From Acinetobacter sp. (GTDB taxonomy: Bacteria > Pseudomonadota > Gammaproteobacteria > Pseudomonadales > Moraxellaceae), in contig JAITLL010000074.1 in NCBI GenBank assembly GCA_031277915.1, positions 1-49,653 on the forward strand: DNA of 49,653 nt. Direction: 5' to 3'. Below are positions 43,016 to 49,653 of the stretch, piece after piece. The first letter of the stretch is position 1, and every line of letters begins with the position of its first letter. The notes beneath the pieces are model-generated. The model did not search any database. It saw nothing but the letters and a program-made list of their open reading frames with translations, and was not told the origin of the DNA. Made by a program: the position numbers and the translations under genes.

Positions 43016-44173
43016 ATGAGCTCAAATGAAACAACAACAGGCTTCAAACCAAAAAAATCAGTTGCACTTAGCGGACAAGTTGCAGGAAACACAGCACTTT
43101 GTACCGTAGGACGTAGCGGTAACGACTTGCACTATCGTGGCTATGACATTCTTGACCTTGCAGTCGGTAGCCAGTTTGAAGAAGTTGCTCACTTGCTTGT
43201 ACATGGCAAACTACCGAACAAAGCTGAACTCAAAGCCTATAAAGCAAAATTAAAAGCACTTCGTGGCTTACCAGCAGCACTTAAAACTGCACTTGAACAA
43301 CTTCCTCCGTCTGCACACCCAATGGATGTAATGCGTACAGGTGTTTCAGTTCTTGGTTGCTTAACTCCAGAACACGAAGACCACAACGAAGCGGGCGCAA
43401 AAGATATTGCTGATAAATTAATGGCTAGCCTAGGCTCAATGCTGCTTTATTGGTATCACTTCAGCAACAACGGTCGTCGTATTGAAGTTGAAACTGATGA
43501 CGACTCAATTGCAGCGCATTTCTTACACTTACTTCATGGTGAAAAACCATCTGAAGAGTGGATTGAAGCAATGCATACATCTCTCATTTTGTATGCTGAG
43601 CATGAGTTCAATGCATCAACATTTACGTCACGTGTGGTTGCAGGTACAGGTTCTGACATGTACTCGGCAATTACTGGCGGTATTGGCGCACTTCGTGGAC
43701 CTAAGCACGGCGGTGCAAACGAAGTTGCATTCGTAATTCAACAACGTTACGACAATGCAGATGAAGCAGAAGCAGACATCCGTAGCCGTGTTGAGAAGAA
43801 AGAAGTTGTGATTGGTTTTGGTCACCCAGTCTATACAATTTCTGACCCACGTAACGAAGTCATCAAAAAAGTTGCGCACGACTTAGCACAAGCGCAAGAG
43901 AACACCAAAATGTACCTCATTGCTGAGCGCTTAGAAGCAGTGATGAAAGATGCGAAAAACATGTTCCCGAACCTCGACTGGTTCAGTGCAGTGAGCTATC
44001 ACTTAATGGGTGTTCCAACTGCAATGTTCACACCATTATTCGTGATTGCACGTACAGCAGGTTGGTCAGCTCACGTGATTGAACAACGCCAAGACGGCAA
44101 AATCATTCGTCCAAGCGCAAACTACACAGGCCCTGAAAACCTCAAATTCAAACCATTGGCGGAGCGTGGTTAA
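43016..44173 (+). CDS. prpC: 2-Methylcitrate synthase
   Basis: PrpC condenses propionyl-CoA with oxaloacetate to 2-methylcitrate. The 385-residue length and short N-terminus fit the PrpC branch of the citrate synthase family, which is shorter than GltA. Conserved parts are [22 protein letters not shown], the first active-site His in GPKHGGANE, the second His in [14 protein letters not shown], and the Asp region [23 protein letters not shown] is upstream. It overlaps acnD by one base. Confidence 0.95.
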
Positions 44174-46779
44174 TGAACACAAAATACCGTAAACCGCTGG
44201 CAGGCACCCAGCTTGAATATTACGACGTGCGTCAAGCCGTTGAAGATATTCAGCCAGGCGCATACGAAAAACTGCCTTACACATCTAAAATACTTGCAGA
44301 GCAATTGGTACGCCGTGCCGATGCCGAGAACTTAACTGCTTATTTAACGCAGTTGATTGAACGCCGTCAGGACTTGGACTTTCCTTGGTATCCTGCACGT
44401 GTGGTGTGTCATGACATTTTGGGTCAAACAGCTTTGGTTGACCTTGCAGGTTTGCGTGATGCGATTGCCGACAAAGGCGGCGACCCATCTAAAGTTAACC
44501 CAGTTGTACCAACACAGCTTATTGTCGACCACTCTTTAGCAGTGGAATACGGTGGTGCTGACCCAGATGCTTTTGCAAAAAACCGTGCTGTTGAAGACCG
44601 CCGTAACGAAGACCGTTTCCACTTTATTGAGTGGACCAAAACCGCATTTAAAAATGTCGATGTGATCCCTGCGGGGAACGGCATTATGCACCAGATTAAC
44701 CTAGAGAAAATGTCTCCGGTGATTCAGGCGCGTGATGGCGTAGCATTCCCAGACACTTGTGTTGGTACAGACTCACATACACCACATACTGACGCTTTGG
44801 GCGTAATTTCTGTGGGTGTCGGTGGCTTAGAAGCTGAAAACGTCATGTTGGGCCGTGCATCTTGGATGCGTCTGCCAGACATTATTGGTGTTGAGTTTGT
44901 AGGTCAGCGTCAAGCAGGCATTACTGCAACAGATATCGTACTTGCTTTAACTGAGTTCTTGCGTAAAGAGCGCGTAGTGGGTGCTTACCTTGAGTTCTTT
45001 GGTGAAGGTGCTGACAGCATGTCTGTGGGCGATCGTGCAACCATCTCGAACATGACACCTGAGTATGGTGCAACGGCTGCGATGTTCTACATCGACCAAA
45101 ACACCATCGACTACTTACGCTTAACTGGTCGTGAAGATGCTCAAGTGGCATTGGTTGAACAGTACGCAAAAGAAATCGGTCTTTGGGCATCTGACATGAC
45201 CAAAGCAGAATACCCACGTGTACTACGTTTTGATCTATCAAAAGTCACACGTAACATTGCGGGCCCATCAAATCCACATGCACGTGTTTCAACTGCCGAC
45301 CTAAAAGAAAAAGGCATTGCGGGTGTTGTTGAAAACCGTTCTGACGGCTTAATGCCAGATGGTGCAATTATCATCGCTGCAATTACTTCATGTACTAACA
45401 CTTCTAACCCACGTAACACCGTGGCGGCAGGTTTGTTGGCACGTAAGGCAAATGAGCTAGGTTTAGTTCGTAAACCTTGGGTGAAATCGTCATTTGCACC
45501 GGGTTCAAAAGCGGCTGCACTTTATCTTGAAGAAGCGGGTGTTCTGAAAGACTTAGAGCAACTTGGTTTTGGTATTGTGGCTTACGCTTGTACGACGTGT
45601 AACGGTATGTCGGGTGCGTTAGATCCAGTCATTCAACAAGAAATTATTGACCGTGACTTGTACGCAACAGCAGTACTGTCTGGTAACCGTAACTTCGATG
45701 GCCGTATCCATCCATATGCAAAACAAGCGTTCTTGGCATCTCCACCGCTTGTTGTGGCGTATGCAATTGCGGGTACGATTCGTTTTGACATCGAAAAAGA
45801 TGCTTTAGGTCATGACAAAGAAGGTAACCCGATTTACCTGAAAGACATCTGGCCATCTGATGCTGAAATTGATGCGTTAGTTAAAGAAGCCGTGAAACCT
45901 GAACAGTTCCGTAAAGTCTACATTCCAATGTTTGACCTAGGTGTAACCGTAGAGGCCGAAAGTCCGCTTTATGACTGGCGTCCACAAAGTACTTACATCC
46001 GTCGTCCACCATATTGGGAAGGGGCGTTGGCTGCACCACGTACTTTAGCGAACATGCGTCCGCTTGCGATTTTAGGTGACAACATCACCACTGATCATTT
46101 GTCGCCTTCAAACGCGATTTTGATGGACTCGGCTGCGGGTGAATATCTTCATAAAATGGGCTTACCAGAAGAAGACTTTAACTCATATGCAACGCACCGT
46201 GGTGACCATTTGACTGCACAACGTGCAACATTTGCCAACCCGAAACTCTATAACGAAATGGTAGTTCGTTCAGACGGTACCATTAAGCAAGGTTCAAAAG
46301 CGCGTGTAGAGCCAGAAGGCGAAGTCATGCGTATGTGGGAAGCGATTGAAACCTACATGAACCGTAAACAGCCATTAATTATTGTTGCGGGTGCTGACTA
46401 CGGTCAGGGTTCAAGCCGTGACTGGGCTGCTAAAGGTGTACGCCTTGCAGGTGTTGAAGTGATTGTGGCAGAAGGTTTTGAACGTATTCACCGTACTAAC
46501 TTGGTGGGTATGGGCGTGTTACCACTTGAGTTTAAACCGGGTGTAAACCGCAAGACTTTAAAACTAGATGGTACTGAGCTTTATAGCGTGATTGGTAATA
46601 TCGCGCCGCGTTCGACTTTAACTTTAGTGATTGAACGTGCTACAGCGGATGGTAAAGAAGAGATTCTTGAAGTGCCAGTGACTTGCCGTTTAGATACAGA
46701 AGAAGAAGTTTCTGTATATGAAGCGGGCGGTGTATTACAGCGTTTTGCACAAGACTTTTTAGAAGGCCAAGTGGCTTAA
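44173..46779 (+). CDS. acnD: Fe/S-dependent 2-methylcitrate dehydratase AcnD
   Basis: AcnD is an aconitase-family enzyme that dehydrates 2-methylcitrate to 2-methylaconitate. The 868 residues and the N-terminus ([26 protein letters not shown]) fit the AcnD branch. The 4Fe-4S ligands appear in AITSCTNTSNP and in YACTTCNGMSG. Other motifs are CVGTDSHTPHTDALGV, LGDNITTDHLSPSNA, and DYGQGSSRDWAAKG with the active-site Ser and Arg. AcnD usually works with PrpF, but no prpF follows here. An intrinsic terminator comes about 32 bases after the stop. Confidence 0.95.
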   Translation: MNTKYRKPLAGTQLEYYDVRQAVEDIQPGAYEKLPYTSKILAEQLVRRADAENLTAYLTQLIERRQDLDFPWYPARVVCHDILGQTALVDLAGLRDAIADKGGDPSKVNPVVPTQLIVDHSLAVEYGGADPDAFAKNRAVEDRRNEDRFHFIEWTKTAFKNVDVIPAGNGIMHQINLEKMSPVIQARDGVAFPDTCVGTDSHTPHTDALGVISVGVGGLEAENVMLGRASWMRLPDIIGVEFVGQRQAGITATDIVLALTEFLRKERVVGAYLEFFGEGADSMSVGDRATISNMTPEYGATAAMFYIDQNTIDYLRLTGREDAQVALVEQYAKEIGLWASDMTKAEYPRVLRFDLSKVTRNIAGPSNPHARVSTADLKEKGIAGVVENRSDGLMPDGAIIIAAITSCTNTSNPRNTVAAGLLARKANELGLVRKPWVKSSFAPGSKAAALYLEEAGVLKDLEQLGFGIVAYACTTCNGMSGALDPVIQQEIIDRDLYATAVLSGNRNFDGRIHPYAKQAFLASPPLVVAYAIAGTIRFDIEKDALGHDKEGNPIYLKDIWPSDAEIDALVKEAVKPEQFRKVYIPMFDLGVTVEAESPLYDWRPQSTYIRRPPYWEGALAAPRTLANMRPLAILGDNITTDHLSPSNAILMDSAAGEYLHKMGLPEEDFNSYATHRGDHLTAQRATFANPKLYNEMVVRSDGTIKQGSKARVEPEGEVMRMWEAIETYMNRKQPLIIVAGADYGQGSSRDWAAKGVRLAGVEVIVAEGFERIHRTNLVGMGVLPLEFKPGVNRKTLKLDGTELYSVIGNIAPRSTLTLVIERATADGKEEILEVPVTCRLDTEEEVSVYEAGGVLQRFAQDFLEGQVA

Positions 46780-47939: not shown

Positions 47940-48077
47940 AAATAAAGTTAGAGTATTTTTGGATAGGTTAATATTTAAATTTTTATAAATTTAGATTTCT
48001 TTTACTTACAAATTAAGGTGTGTATCCAAAATATATTTAATAATGCATTAAGAATACTTATGAAAGAATAAGAACAT

Positions 48078-48207
48078 AAAAAAAGCCCGACATCCTGTCG
48101 GGCTTTTTCGTATTTGGTTGCTAGATATGACTCCTGTCGTATCTCACGATCCTGATGCATGAACCTATTATTGTTGTTTTATGTTCCGGAACATCCTGTT
48201 CCTGTAT
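48078..48207 (-). ncRNA. Repeated small RNA, copy 1
   Basis: The minus strand holds a self-contained RNA unit of about 130 nt. The promoter is TTGGCG (48237-48242) and TATGAT (48214-48219), 17 bases apart. The terminator is GCCCGACA/TGTCGGGC (48085-48103) with seven U at the end. Five CAGGA motifs occur (minus strand, at 48093-48097, 48132-48136, 48150-48154, 48194-48198, 48200-48204). Several lie in hairpin loops: GGAAC-AGGAU-GUUCC, GAC-AGGA-GUC, and the terminator stem. The unit recurs at 49258 and 49513. It may belong to the repeated small RNAs that I recall being reported in A. baumannii (group I / C4-like), but I could not check this. Confidence 0.8.
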
Positions 48208-48213
48208 GAACTC

Positions 48214-48242
48214 ATCATAGAAAAAAAGCAGGGTGTCGCCAA
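48214..48242 (-). promoter_or_regulatory. Promoter of small RNA copy 1
   Basis: The minus strand reads TTGGCG, 17 bases, TATGAT. The same layout is kept in copy 2 (TTGGCA, 17 bases, TAATAT). Similarity between copies 1 and 2 continues a few dozen bases further upstream (for example GCGGATTGGC). Confidence 0.75.
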
Positions 48243-48329
48243 TCCGCTAAATCCCTAAATCTGTGTAAGATAAATCGTACAAATAACATTTTTTGCATTT
48301 ATGCCATCATCATCGGGCGAAATGGACAA

Positions 48330-48357
48330 TTGACATTCACTCTAACTGGGTTATATT
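48330..48357 (+). promoter_or_regulatory. Sigma70 promoter of the zinc-ribbon gene
   Basis: TTGACA (48330-48335) and TATATT (48352-48357) are 16 bases apart. The start would be near 48364, about 30 bases before the ATG. Confidence 0.75.
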
Positions 48358-48393
48358 CCTGTTTAATATATATACGATTATAGGAGTGTAATC

Positions 48394-48528
48394 ATGGTAA
48401 CAGCAGGCGAAAAACCCGGAACAGGCTTCTATTTCTGTGCTCAGTGCGGACATAGAGTGTTTTTAGAAATTAATACAGATCGTTTACCACCATGCACTAA
48501 ATGTTATTGCACTGAGTTTAAACGTTAA
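48394..48528 (+). CDS. Small zinc-ribbon protein, 44 residues
   Basis: The 44-residue protein starts MVTAGEKPGTGFYFCAQCGH and has two cysteine pairs, C15-x-x-C18 and C34-x-x-C37, with a further C39. This is a rubredoxin-like zinc ribbon that should bind one zinc ion. AGGAG (48382-48386) is seven bases before the ATG. A strong promoter and terminator frame it, so it is a single-gene unit. Related short zinc-ribbon proteins occur widely; their role is not established. It lies between small RNA copies 1 and 2. Confidence 0.88.
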   Translation: MVTAGEKPGTGFYFCAQCGHRVFLEINTDRLPPCTKCYCTEFKR

Positions 48529-48556
48529 GAATAAAATAATATTTGCGTTCGCATTT

Positions 48557-48592
48557 AACAAAAAGCCCTGTCACCTGATGGGGCTTTTTGTT
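48557..48592 (+). terminator. Terminator of the zinc-ribbon gene
   Basis: A 12-bp perfect stem, AACAAAAAGCCC/GGGCTTTTTGTT, encloses a 12-base loop. The stem's T tract serves as the release signal. It lies 28 bases after the stop codon. Confidence 0.88.
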
Positions 48593-48650
48593 AATTTAAA
48601 AATAAGACTTACATAATAAGACCCGTGATGGGCATGAAAAGGGAACCGTT

Positions 48651-49226
48651 ATGGAAACAATATTGGGTTTATGTATTGGTGTGGGTTTGAGCGCTGCCTG
48701 CGGTTTTCGCGTGTTTGTGCCGCTACTGGTCATGAGCATTGCAACCATGATGGGATGGTTTGAGCCATCGAAAGGTTTTGAGTGGTTAGCTTTGCCATCG
48801 GTGTGTTTGGCTTTAAGCGTGGCAACGGTGTGTGAAATTGCAGCCTACTACATTCCGTGGGTGGATAATGCCTTAGACACAGTTGCAACCCCTGCCGCTA
48901 TGATCGCGGGCACGCTCACCACGATGGCTGTGAGTAGTGGAGAAATGTCTCAGTTTGCCAGTTGGGCAGCAGCCATTATTGTTGGTGGTGGTACGGCAGG
49001 TATGGTGCAAATGAGTACCGTTGCTGCACGCGGTGTTTCAACTGCAACCACAGGTGGCTTAGGGAATTTTGTCGTTGCGACAGGTGAGTGGATTGGAGCA
49101 ATCTTACTTTCGGTTTCAGCTATGTTAGTGCCTGCGCTTGTGGCAATAGTGGTGCTGATTGCGGTTATTTGGGCAATACGTTGGATACGTCAGAAAAAGC
49201 AACAACAGGCGCATAGTCCGTTATAG
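48651..49226 (+). CDS. DUF4126-type membrane protein
   Basis: The 191-residue protein has about five hydrophobic segments, many Ala, Gly and Val, and a basic C-terminus (IRWIRQKKQQQAH). The N-terminus ETILGLCIGVGLSAACGFRVFVPLL and the P-W-V-D-N-A-L-D-T-V-A-T-P segment at about residues 69-81 are typical of DUF4126. It is an inner-membrane protein of unknown function. Small RNA copies 1 and 2 flank it and the zinc-ribbon gene. Its end is 32 bases before the terminator end of copy 2, which points toward it. Confidence 0.85.
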   Translation: METILGLCIGVGLSAACGFRVFVPLLVMSIATMMGWFEPSKGFEWLALPSVCLALSVATVCEIAAYYIPWVDNALDTVATPAAMIAGTLTTMAVSSGEMSQFASWAAAIIVGGGTAGMVQMSTVAARGVSTATTGGLGNFVVATGEWIGAILLSVSAMLVPALVAIVVLIAVIWAIRWIRQKKQQQAHSPL

Positions 49227-49257
49227 CTGTGTGTAAATATTATTTTTAAATAAGTAT

Positions 49258-49386
49258 AAAAAAAGCCCAACATCCTGTTGGGCTTTTTCGTATTTGGTTG
49301 CTAGATATGACTCCTGTCGTATCTCACATCCTGATGCATGAACCTATTATTGTTGTTTTATGTTCCGGAACATCCTGTTCCTGTAT
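49258..49386 (-). ncRNA. Repeated small RNA, copy 2
   Basis: This near-identical copy of the 48078 unit has promoter TTGGCA (49416-49421), 17 bases, TAATAT (49393-49398). It also has five CAGGA motifs and an intrinsic terminator with seven or more U. The terminator stem is GCCCAACA/TGTTGGGC: one G-C pair of copy 1 has become A-T, with both partners changed. One base is missing near 49327 compared with copies 1 and 3, which turns one CAGGATC into CAGGATG. Confidence 0.8.
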
Positions 49387-49392
49387 GACTTC

Positions 49393-49421
49393 ATATTAGG
49401 AAAAAAGCAGGGTACTGCCAA
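49393..49421 (-). promoter_or_regulatory. Promoter of small RNA copy 2
   Basis: On the minus strand TTGGCA and TAATAT are 17 bases apart, a near-consensus sigma70 promoter with the same spacing as copy 1. Confidence 0.78.
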
Positions 49422-49512
49422 TCCGCAAAAACCTTAAAAGCTTGTAAGAGAAATCTTACATTGAAGAATGATTTAGCTGTTTAAACCCTAAAAGTTCTCA
49501 ATATTCAGATAT

Positions 49513-49642
49513 AAAAAAAGCCCGACATCCTGTCGGGCTTTTTCGTATTTGGGTACTAGATATGACTCCTGTCGTATCTCACGATCCTGATGCATGAACC
49601 TATTATTGTTGTTTTATGTTCCGGAACATCCTGTTCCTGTAT
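49513..49642 (-). ncRNA. Repeated small RNA, copy 3 (promoter cut by the window edge)
   Basis: A third copy in tandem with copy 2, 255 bases on. The RNA part is complete: terminator stem GCCCGACA/TGTCGGGC with seven U, five CAGGA motifs, and the GGAAC-AGGAU-GUUCC hairpin. It differs from copy 1 by only a few bases (for example GGGTAC for GGTTGC near 49551). The -10 (AATAT...) is at the very end of the window and the -35 is outside. Confidence 0.75.
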
Positions 49643-49653
49643 GACTTCATATT

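Follow-up and report, generated by a model that had tools for sequence, protein, structure and literature searches.

Three repeat units at the end of a contig

The window, by which we mean the whole 49,653-nt stretch of Acinetobacter DNA that was analyzed, ends where its contig (C48 of a 3.48-Mb draft genome) ends, and three direct repeats of 140 nt each lie at that end (48076-48215, 49255-49394, and 49511-49650). All three are minus-strand units and appear to specify a small RNA (sRNA). The features of the locus are listed below; the sRNA starts are estimated, and R1 denotes the covariance model of the RNA family.

48078..48207, minus strand: sRNA copy 1, start placed 7 nt past the -10; R1 match 48078-48212, 163 bits
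48080..48108, minus strand: terminator hairpin of copy 1 with AGGAU loop; pairing intact in 100% of cells across 44 copies
48214..48219, minus strand: -10 of copy 1, TATGAT, read from the sequence; the -10 region is conserved
48237..48242, minus strand: -35-like TTGGCG of copy 1, read from the sequence; not conserved genus-wide
48264..48281, minus strand: putative GacA-box palindrome of copy 1, TGTACGATTTATCTTACA; 1 mismatch to TGTAAGN6CTTACA, 51 nt before the modelled start
49258..49386, minus strand: sRNA copy 2; R1 match 49258-49391, 163.9 bits
49260..49288, minus strand: terminator hairpin of copy 2 with AGGAU loop, from repeat comparison and fold
49393..49398, minus strand: -10 of copy 2, TAATAT, read from the sequence
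49416..49421, minus strand: -35-like TTGGCA of copy 2, read from the sequence
49443..49460, minus strand: putative GacA-box palindrome of copy 2, TGTAAGATTTCTCTTACA; 0 mismatches, 51 nt before the modelled start
49513..49642, minus strand: sRNA copy 3; R1 match 49513-49647, 162.6 bits
49515..49543, minus strand: terminator hairpin of copy 3 with AGGAU loop, from repeat comparison and fold
Outside the window, on contig C20 (locus L008): putative GacA box of copy 3; 2 mismatches, 51 nt before the modelled start

In an ungapped comparison with copy 1, copy 3 reaches 97% identity and copy 2, because of a one-base indel, 61%; gapped blastn gives 93–98% for copy 2. All three units fold better than dinucleotide-preserving shuffles (z of -5.1, -5.4, and -4.9 for copies 1, 2, and 3), and for each of them 0 of 200 shuffles folded as well as the real unit. 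The repeat alignment and the folds bear out an earlier note on this DNA, which had described three nearly identical minus-strand blocks of about 130 nt; the GC-rich stem followed by seven T/U, which it had placed at the end of every copy, can be read directly from the sequence. Its statement that gene-sized proteins are absent holds within the units; the interval from copy 1 to copy 2, though, contains two plus-strand genes, one for a zinc-ribbon protein (PF07295, 48394-48528) and one for a DUF4126 protein (PF13548, 48651-49226). That the units themselves form a small protein-coding gene is scarcely credible: a 52-aa ATG frame does extend over part of copy 1 (48002-48160), but it reads through the terminator, and copies 1 and 2 differ by a one-base indel within it that is seen again in the genus alignment. 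Among the upstream genes (43016-46779), citrate/methylcitrate synthase-like and aconitase-like proteins were recognized, judged by eye only.

The promoter of copy 3 extends beyond the window and was recovered as TTGGCG-N17-TAATAT on contig C20, which overlaps the window end exactly over 119 nt and ends in the same copy 3. Copies 1 and 2 read TTGGCG-N17-TATGAT and TTGGCA-N17-TAATAT, so the 17-bp spacing between -35 and -10 had been given correctly. The promoter boxes had also been called clear; across the genus, 45 aligned upstream regions show conservation of the palindrome and the -10 but not of the -35 region, the TTGGC box being confined to close relatives. In the source genome, model R1 detects, besides the three clustered copies, one on contig C6 (137 bits) and a degenerate fifth on contig C76 (L167:648-779, 58 bits), which has three GGA, is without a GacA box, and is probably in decay.

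AGGA hairpins and an upstream palindrome

Two features had gone unmentioned in the earlier note: the AGGA loops and the 18-bp palindromes at 48264-48281 and 49443-49460. Across an alignment of 44 distinct copies (A1, from 47 blastn rows minus two duplicates and one truncated row), each RNA has four AGGA hairpins, one of which is the terminator:

Hairpin 1: GGAAC[AGGAN]GUUCC
Hairpin 2, weak: CA(U/C)..AGGA..GUG
Hairpin 3, covarying: ends GAC[AGGA]GUY
Hairpin 4, terminator: GCCCGAC[AGGAU]GUCGGGC

Covariation was tested on a consensus structure drawn by hand from copy 1. Pairing was intact in 99.2% of paired cells in A1, changes on both sides of a pair occurred in 39 cells as against 7.7 in shuffles, and sliding the partners by 1–3 columns reduced pairing to 32–46%. 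RNAalifold, which was given no hand-drawn input, recovered three of the four hairpins (the weak second was missed) and proposed an additional pairing, GAAC..GUUY, enclosing an A-rich linker. A broader alignment (A3) of 59 rows, comprising 36 of the 44 A1 copies, 19 plasmid copies, and 4 copies from A. baylyi, contained 71 cells with both-side changes versus 16.4 in shuffles; in A3, neither the number of pairs with a both-side change (8, with 76 of 500 shuffles as high) nor that of further pair types (20, 474 of 500) rose above shuffles. The first two hairpins (HP1 and SL2) are too invariant for a covariation test.

The AGGA motif is strongly enriched, at 5.0 per chromosomal copy versus 1.3 in dinucleotide shuffles (45 copies) and 4.1 per plasmid copy versus 1.35 (19 copies). 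By pattern, the four loops are retained in 45, 45, 43, and 41 of the 45 chromosomal copies and in 19, 19, 16, and 16 of the 19 plasmid copies. Published CsrA determinants include ANGGAN loops and the sequence RUACARGGAUGU (PMC7652899); judged by their sequence, the AGGA loops of the Acinetobacter RNA fit these determinants, suggesting that CsrA may bind them.

CsrA binding gives no explanation for the A-rich linker AAAACAANAAUAAUA (e.g., window 48164-48181, minus strand), which is strongly conserved across the 44 copies and is possibly a base-pairing, Hfq, or RNase site. This conservation would suit an Hfq-type family of base-pairing sRNAs that contacts its targets through the linker and keeps the AGGA loops for stability or a second role, and some base-pairing sRNAs bind CsrA too (PMC7652899). 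We nevertheless consider such a family unlikely, since no part of the RNA is more constant than the AGGA loops, the least retained of which is still present in 41 of 45 chromosomal copies, and a GacA box is a mark of Csr sponge genes.

Every one of the 46 chromosomal rows examined has a palindrome of 18 bp close to TGTAAG-N6-CTTACA, with 0–3 mismatches, 50–52 nt ahead of the modelled start. The search covered 47 blastn rows from 32 loci, 46 of them with upstream sequence, and took the best match anywhere within at most 200 nt upstream; the rows are the best-scoring blastn loci and mutually related, so the copies are not independent. Only 0.2% of shuffled upstream regions had three or fewer mismatches at the place of the box (45 copies with at least 80 nt upstream), and three more A. 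baumannii copies (L164-L166), two of them diverged (79–82 bits), retain the box at 51–52 nt. The pattern by itself is not significant across the window (3 matches at no more than 2 mismatches, with 2.93 expected), and the argument therefore rests on the position and conservation of the box. Its 18-bp consensus is that of the UvrY site footprinted at E. coli csrB and csrC (PMC4682653), which points to activation by GacA.

The source genome encodes one CsrA, above the cut-off of both NF002469 and TIGR00202. In its N-terminal part, 50 of 52 residues are identical to the solved CsrA 1y00, which we take to be the E. coli protein. The nearest GacA-type regulator scored 266.5 bits in the genome search and 265.2 bits as a protein, below the curated NCBIfam cut-off of 280, and further response regulators are present. 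Because the palindrome points to GacA through its consensus only, these additional regulators leave room for a CsrA sponge whose box is read by a NarL/FixJ-type regulator other than GacA. We judge this very unlikely, given that the box is the same as the UvrY consensus established by footprinting (PMC4682653) and that all 16 genus genomes checked, including four with no detected RNA, have a GacA orthologue together with CsrA.

Distribution and relation to known RNAs

The RNA family is present in 116 of 120 Acinetobacter genomes (covariance model, E ≤ 0.001), usually in several copies, with match numbers per genome that may include terminator noise; blastn matched 111 of the 120. Weak covariance-model matches came from G014, G031, G098, and G099 (E 1e-7 to 1e-9), and at E ≤ 0.001 there was no match to the RNA in G026, G032, G050, and G077. 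Strict co-occurrence of the RNA with CsrA and GacA was rejected, since these last four genomes retain both proteins; either the tie between the RNA and these proteins is not strict, or the RNA has diverged too far there to be detected. In a scan of named genomes, the 80 listed of 87 matching stretches all had Acinetobacter titles, the covariance model was run on 10, and A. baylyi DSM 14961 was found to carry copies. A family-wide scan gave matches in 68 of 199 genomes, of which 64 belong to the genus and four to two other genera (E 1e-4 to 1e-3). Terminators also give matches of 21–35 bits, for the most part on the strand opposite to a true copy, so the four matches from other genera are at the level of terminator noise and were not counted as homologues. 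With their own promoter region, their own terminator, and several copies per genome across the genus, the units support the view of the earlier note that they are autonomous, repeated sibling RNAs.

None of the Rfam models CsrB, CsrC, RsmX, RsmY, and RsmZ matched the window at the gathering threshold, the Csr/Rsm models likewise found nothing in eight further loci (gathering), and no Csr/Rsm family was among the 56 matches at E ≤ 10 in 48000-49653. Those 56 (AgrB, STnc310, STnc430, MicC, and others) fall below gathering, mostly on terminator hairpins, and were discarded. A proposed check against CsrB and RsmX-Z had named the right functional class, but as no Rfam model of those families matches, we file the RNA as of the same type and not as a member of them. 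A second suggestion, a C4-like RNA of A. baumannii Group 1, is not supported. Multi-copy C4-type sRNAs do exist in A. baumannii (PMC5320573), yet we give almost no weight to a phage-derived C4-type antisense RNA: Rfam C4 matched neither the window at gathering nor 48000-49653 at E ≤ 10, and Group 1 is a C4-type family distinct from Group 3 (PMC5320573), to which we return below. As to a phage origin, the six matching "phage" records are all contigs of "Acinetobacter phage MD-2021a", and the one opened, with fabB and acnA, looks chromosomal.

The resemblance to RsmX, RsmY, and RsmZ of Pseudomonas and CsrB and CsrC of enterobacteria extends to AGGA/ANGGA hairpin loops in a short or multi-site non-coding RNA (PMC7911923, PMC2375449) and to a palindromic GacA/UvrY box upstream and sibling copies (PMC7911923, PMC2375449, PMC4682653). 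Unlike these RNAs, the Acinetobacter RNA has AGGA even in its terminator loop and lies on many plasmids. RsmA-regulating sRNAs have been predicted in Acinetobacter ADP1 by Fakhry et al. (2017), and others in a 2006 paper by Kulkarni et al. (PMC5568370); they share the genus, the intergenic location, and a similar size (119 and 139 nt), but are computational predictions for one strain, with no GacA box or plasmid copies given in the accessible part of the article (PMC5568370). A CsrB-like small RNA also appears in the model drawn in a 2025 paper on ADP1 (PMC12442408).

RNA-seq of A. baumannii AB5075 by Weiss et al. (2016) revealed four similar Group 3 sRNAs of 128–147 nt (ABUWs005, 061, 081, and 083), to which no function was assigned (PMC5320573). 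A. baumannii NZ_CP104448.1, a chromosome-length record filed as a plasmid, has six matches to our RNA family. Only positions were compared between the two genomes, and for the spacing between ABUWs083 and ABUWs005 across the origin the genome length of AB5075 is an assumed value. One copy in NZ_CP104448.1 shares the strand of tmRNA and is 16.3 kb away from it, much like ABUWs061 in AB5075, at 16.4 kb (PMC5320573). Another is about 101–103 kb from a cluster of copies, in rough agreement with the 98 kb between ABUWs081 and 083, and the cluster is 356 kb from a further copy, roughly like the ABUWs083-005 interval (PMC5320573). These spacings suggest that the Group 3 sRNAs are probably the family described here, and that it is expressed.

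We therefore interpret the three units as sibling non-coding RNAs that sequester CsrA and are activated by GacA, CsrB/RsmX-Y-Z in type, with a probability of about 0.85. Counting against this interpretation are the missing Rfam Csr/Rsm match, the GacA-type protein below its cut-off, the four RNA-less genomes with both proteins, the relatedness of the copies, and the loops lost in some plasmid copies; we hold to it because of the AGGA loops with covarying stems, the position of the box, the presence of CsrA and a GacA-type regulator, and the earlier ADP1 predictions. Phosphorylated GacA, its phosphorylation being presumed, would bind the palindrome upstream of each copy and activate a promoter whose -10 is good and whose -35 is not conserved. 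The transcript of about 130 nt, presumably made in the source organism as well, would then present four AGGA hairpin loops, including that of the terminator, as decoys for CsrA dimers, which would free the mRNA targets of CsrA, and several copies would supply a higher dose of sponge. The dosage or sibling-RNA regulation proposed in the earlier note is consistent with such titration of a protein. A widespread, uncharacterized Acinetobacter sRNA family would thereby gain a likely identity and a place in the Gac-Csr pathway, in a genus where csrA has been reported as essential on rich media (A. baumannii, PMC12802169) and GacS/A as controlling metabolism and the transfer of plasmid pAB3 (PMC10746170).

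Copies on plasmids and pdif-like sites

Plasmid copies of the RNA family are apparently new, as none were found in the literature searched. A first PLSDB count of 425 records was rejected because it included three chromosome-length A. baumannii records and was inflated by terminator-only matches; a query free of the terminator gave only 139 records, 138 from Acinetobacter and one from Klebsiella (17 Klebsiella records with the first query), at least two of the 139 being chromosome-length. Misfiled records noticed along the way (L141, NZ_CP104448.1; L145, CAKLQF020000013.1) are of two kinds, chromosome-length A. baumannii entries listed as plasmids in PLSDB and the chromosome-like MD-2021a "phage" contig. 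One query found 309 records, and another 473, that cover at least 80% of a unit running from a pdif-like site to the terminator; these counts include duplicates and come from overlapping lists. Among the plasmids fetched, the smallest is 5,688 bp long.

A first batch of 18 plasmid loci was picked for variety (3 of 20 plus 15 of 60 listed rows). All 18 gave full-length matches, with 19 copies at 102–143 bits, and the best box match within 150 nt was 51 nt upstream in 19 of 19 copies (1–4 mismatches). Eight more loci were drawn from the rows of the two pdif-to-terminator queries, seven of them chosen with a query starting at the pdif site; here the RNA matched in 8 of 8 (50–132 bits), and a search of the expected 110-nt stretch found a box with 0–4 mismatches in all eight, at about 51 nt upstream (within 2 nt of the model start). 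All 26 loci of this non-random sample have both the RNA and a box about 51 nt upstream. Some plasmid copies are without certain AGGA loops, and several in the second batch are eroded, L173 having one AGGA left and L174 two.

A pdif-like (XerC/D) site is found 291–313 bp upstream of the RNA in 23 of the 26 plasmid loci, seven of which had been selected by that site (15 of 18 in the first batch, with L151, L154, and L160 as exceptions, and 8 of 8 in the second). With the pdif (XerC/XerD) pattern used in this search, 0.02–0.06 sites per locus would be expected by chance (three loci tested). An opposite pdif-like site downstream closes a putative module around the RNA in L144, L146, L153, L156, L157, and L159, and RelE/HTH, NadS/RelE, VapBC, or Fic genes adjoin the RNA, by annotation, in 11 of the 18 first-batch loci.

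With some hesitation, we lean towards the view that hundreds of Acinetobacter plasmids, some smaller than 6 kb, carry a GacA-responsive CsrA-sponge RNA within XerC/XerD-mobile pdif modules, often beside toxin-antitoxin genes, and that the RNA tunes the Gac-Csr system of the host and spreads as cargo. With the same box spacing as on the chromosome, and commonly near pdif, a plasmid-borne RNA would act as an extra sponge in proportion to plasmid copy number. Plasmid pQBR103, which carries the CsrA/RsmA homologue RsmQ, similarly reaches into the Gac-Rsm circuit of its host (PMC9928087), but it brings a protein, whereas the Acinetobacter plasmids would bring an antagonist RNA with its own putative GacA box. 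If the plasmid copies work, plasmid and host would communicate by way of a decoy RNA equipped with a control element of the host itself, and the costs and benefits of small plasmids in Acinetobacter could be tested through one RNA.

Three further observations concern the surroundings of the RNA. In a single-contig genome of 3.9 Mb, a pdif-like site with 2 mismatches (L037:1265-1290) lies 208 bp upstream of a copy, hinting at chromosomal modules. Upstream of the sRNA, the first 166 bp or so counted from the pdif site are conserved and contain a terminator-like hairpin (L159:2668-2833 and the other pdif loci); queries including this stretch returned 1101 and 1043 plasmid records, many of which match it alone. 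On a small A. lwoffii plasmid, an nhaA-I riboswitch match (L152:1983-2033, 51 bits against a gathering threshold of 37) lies upstream of a SulP transporter gene.
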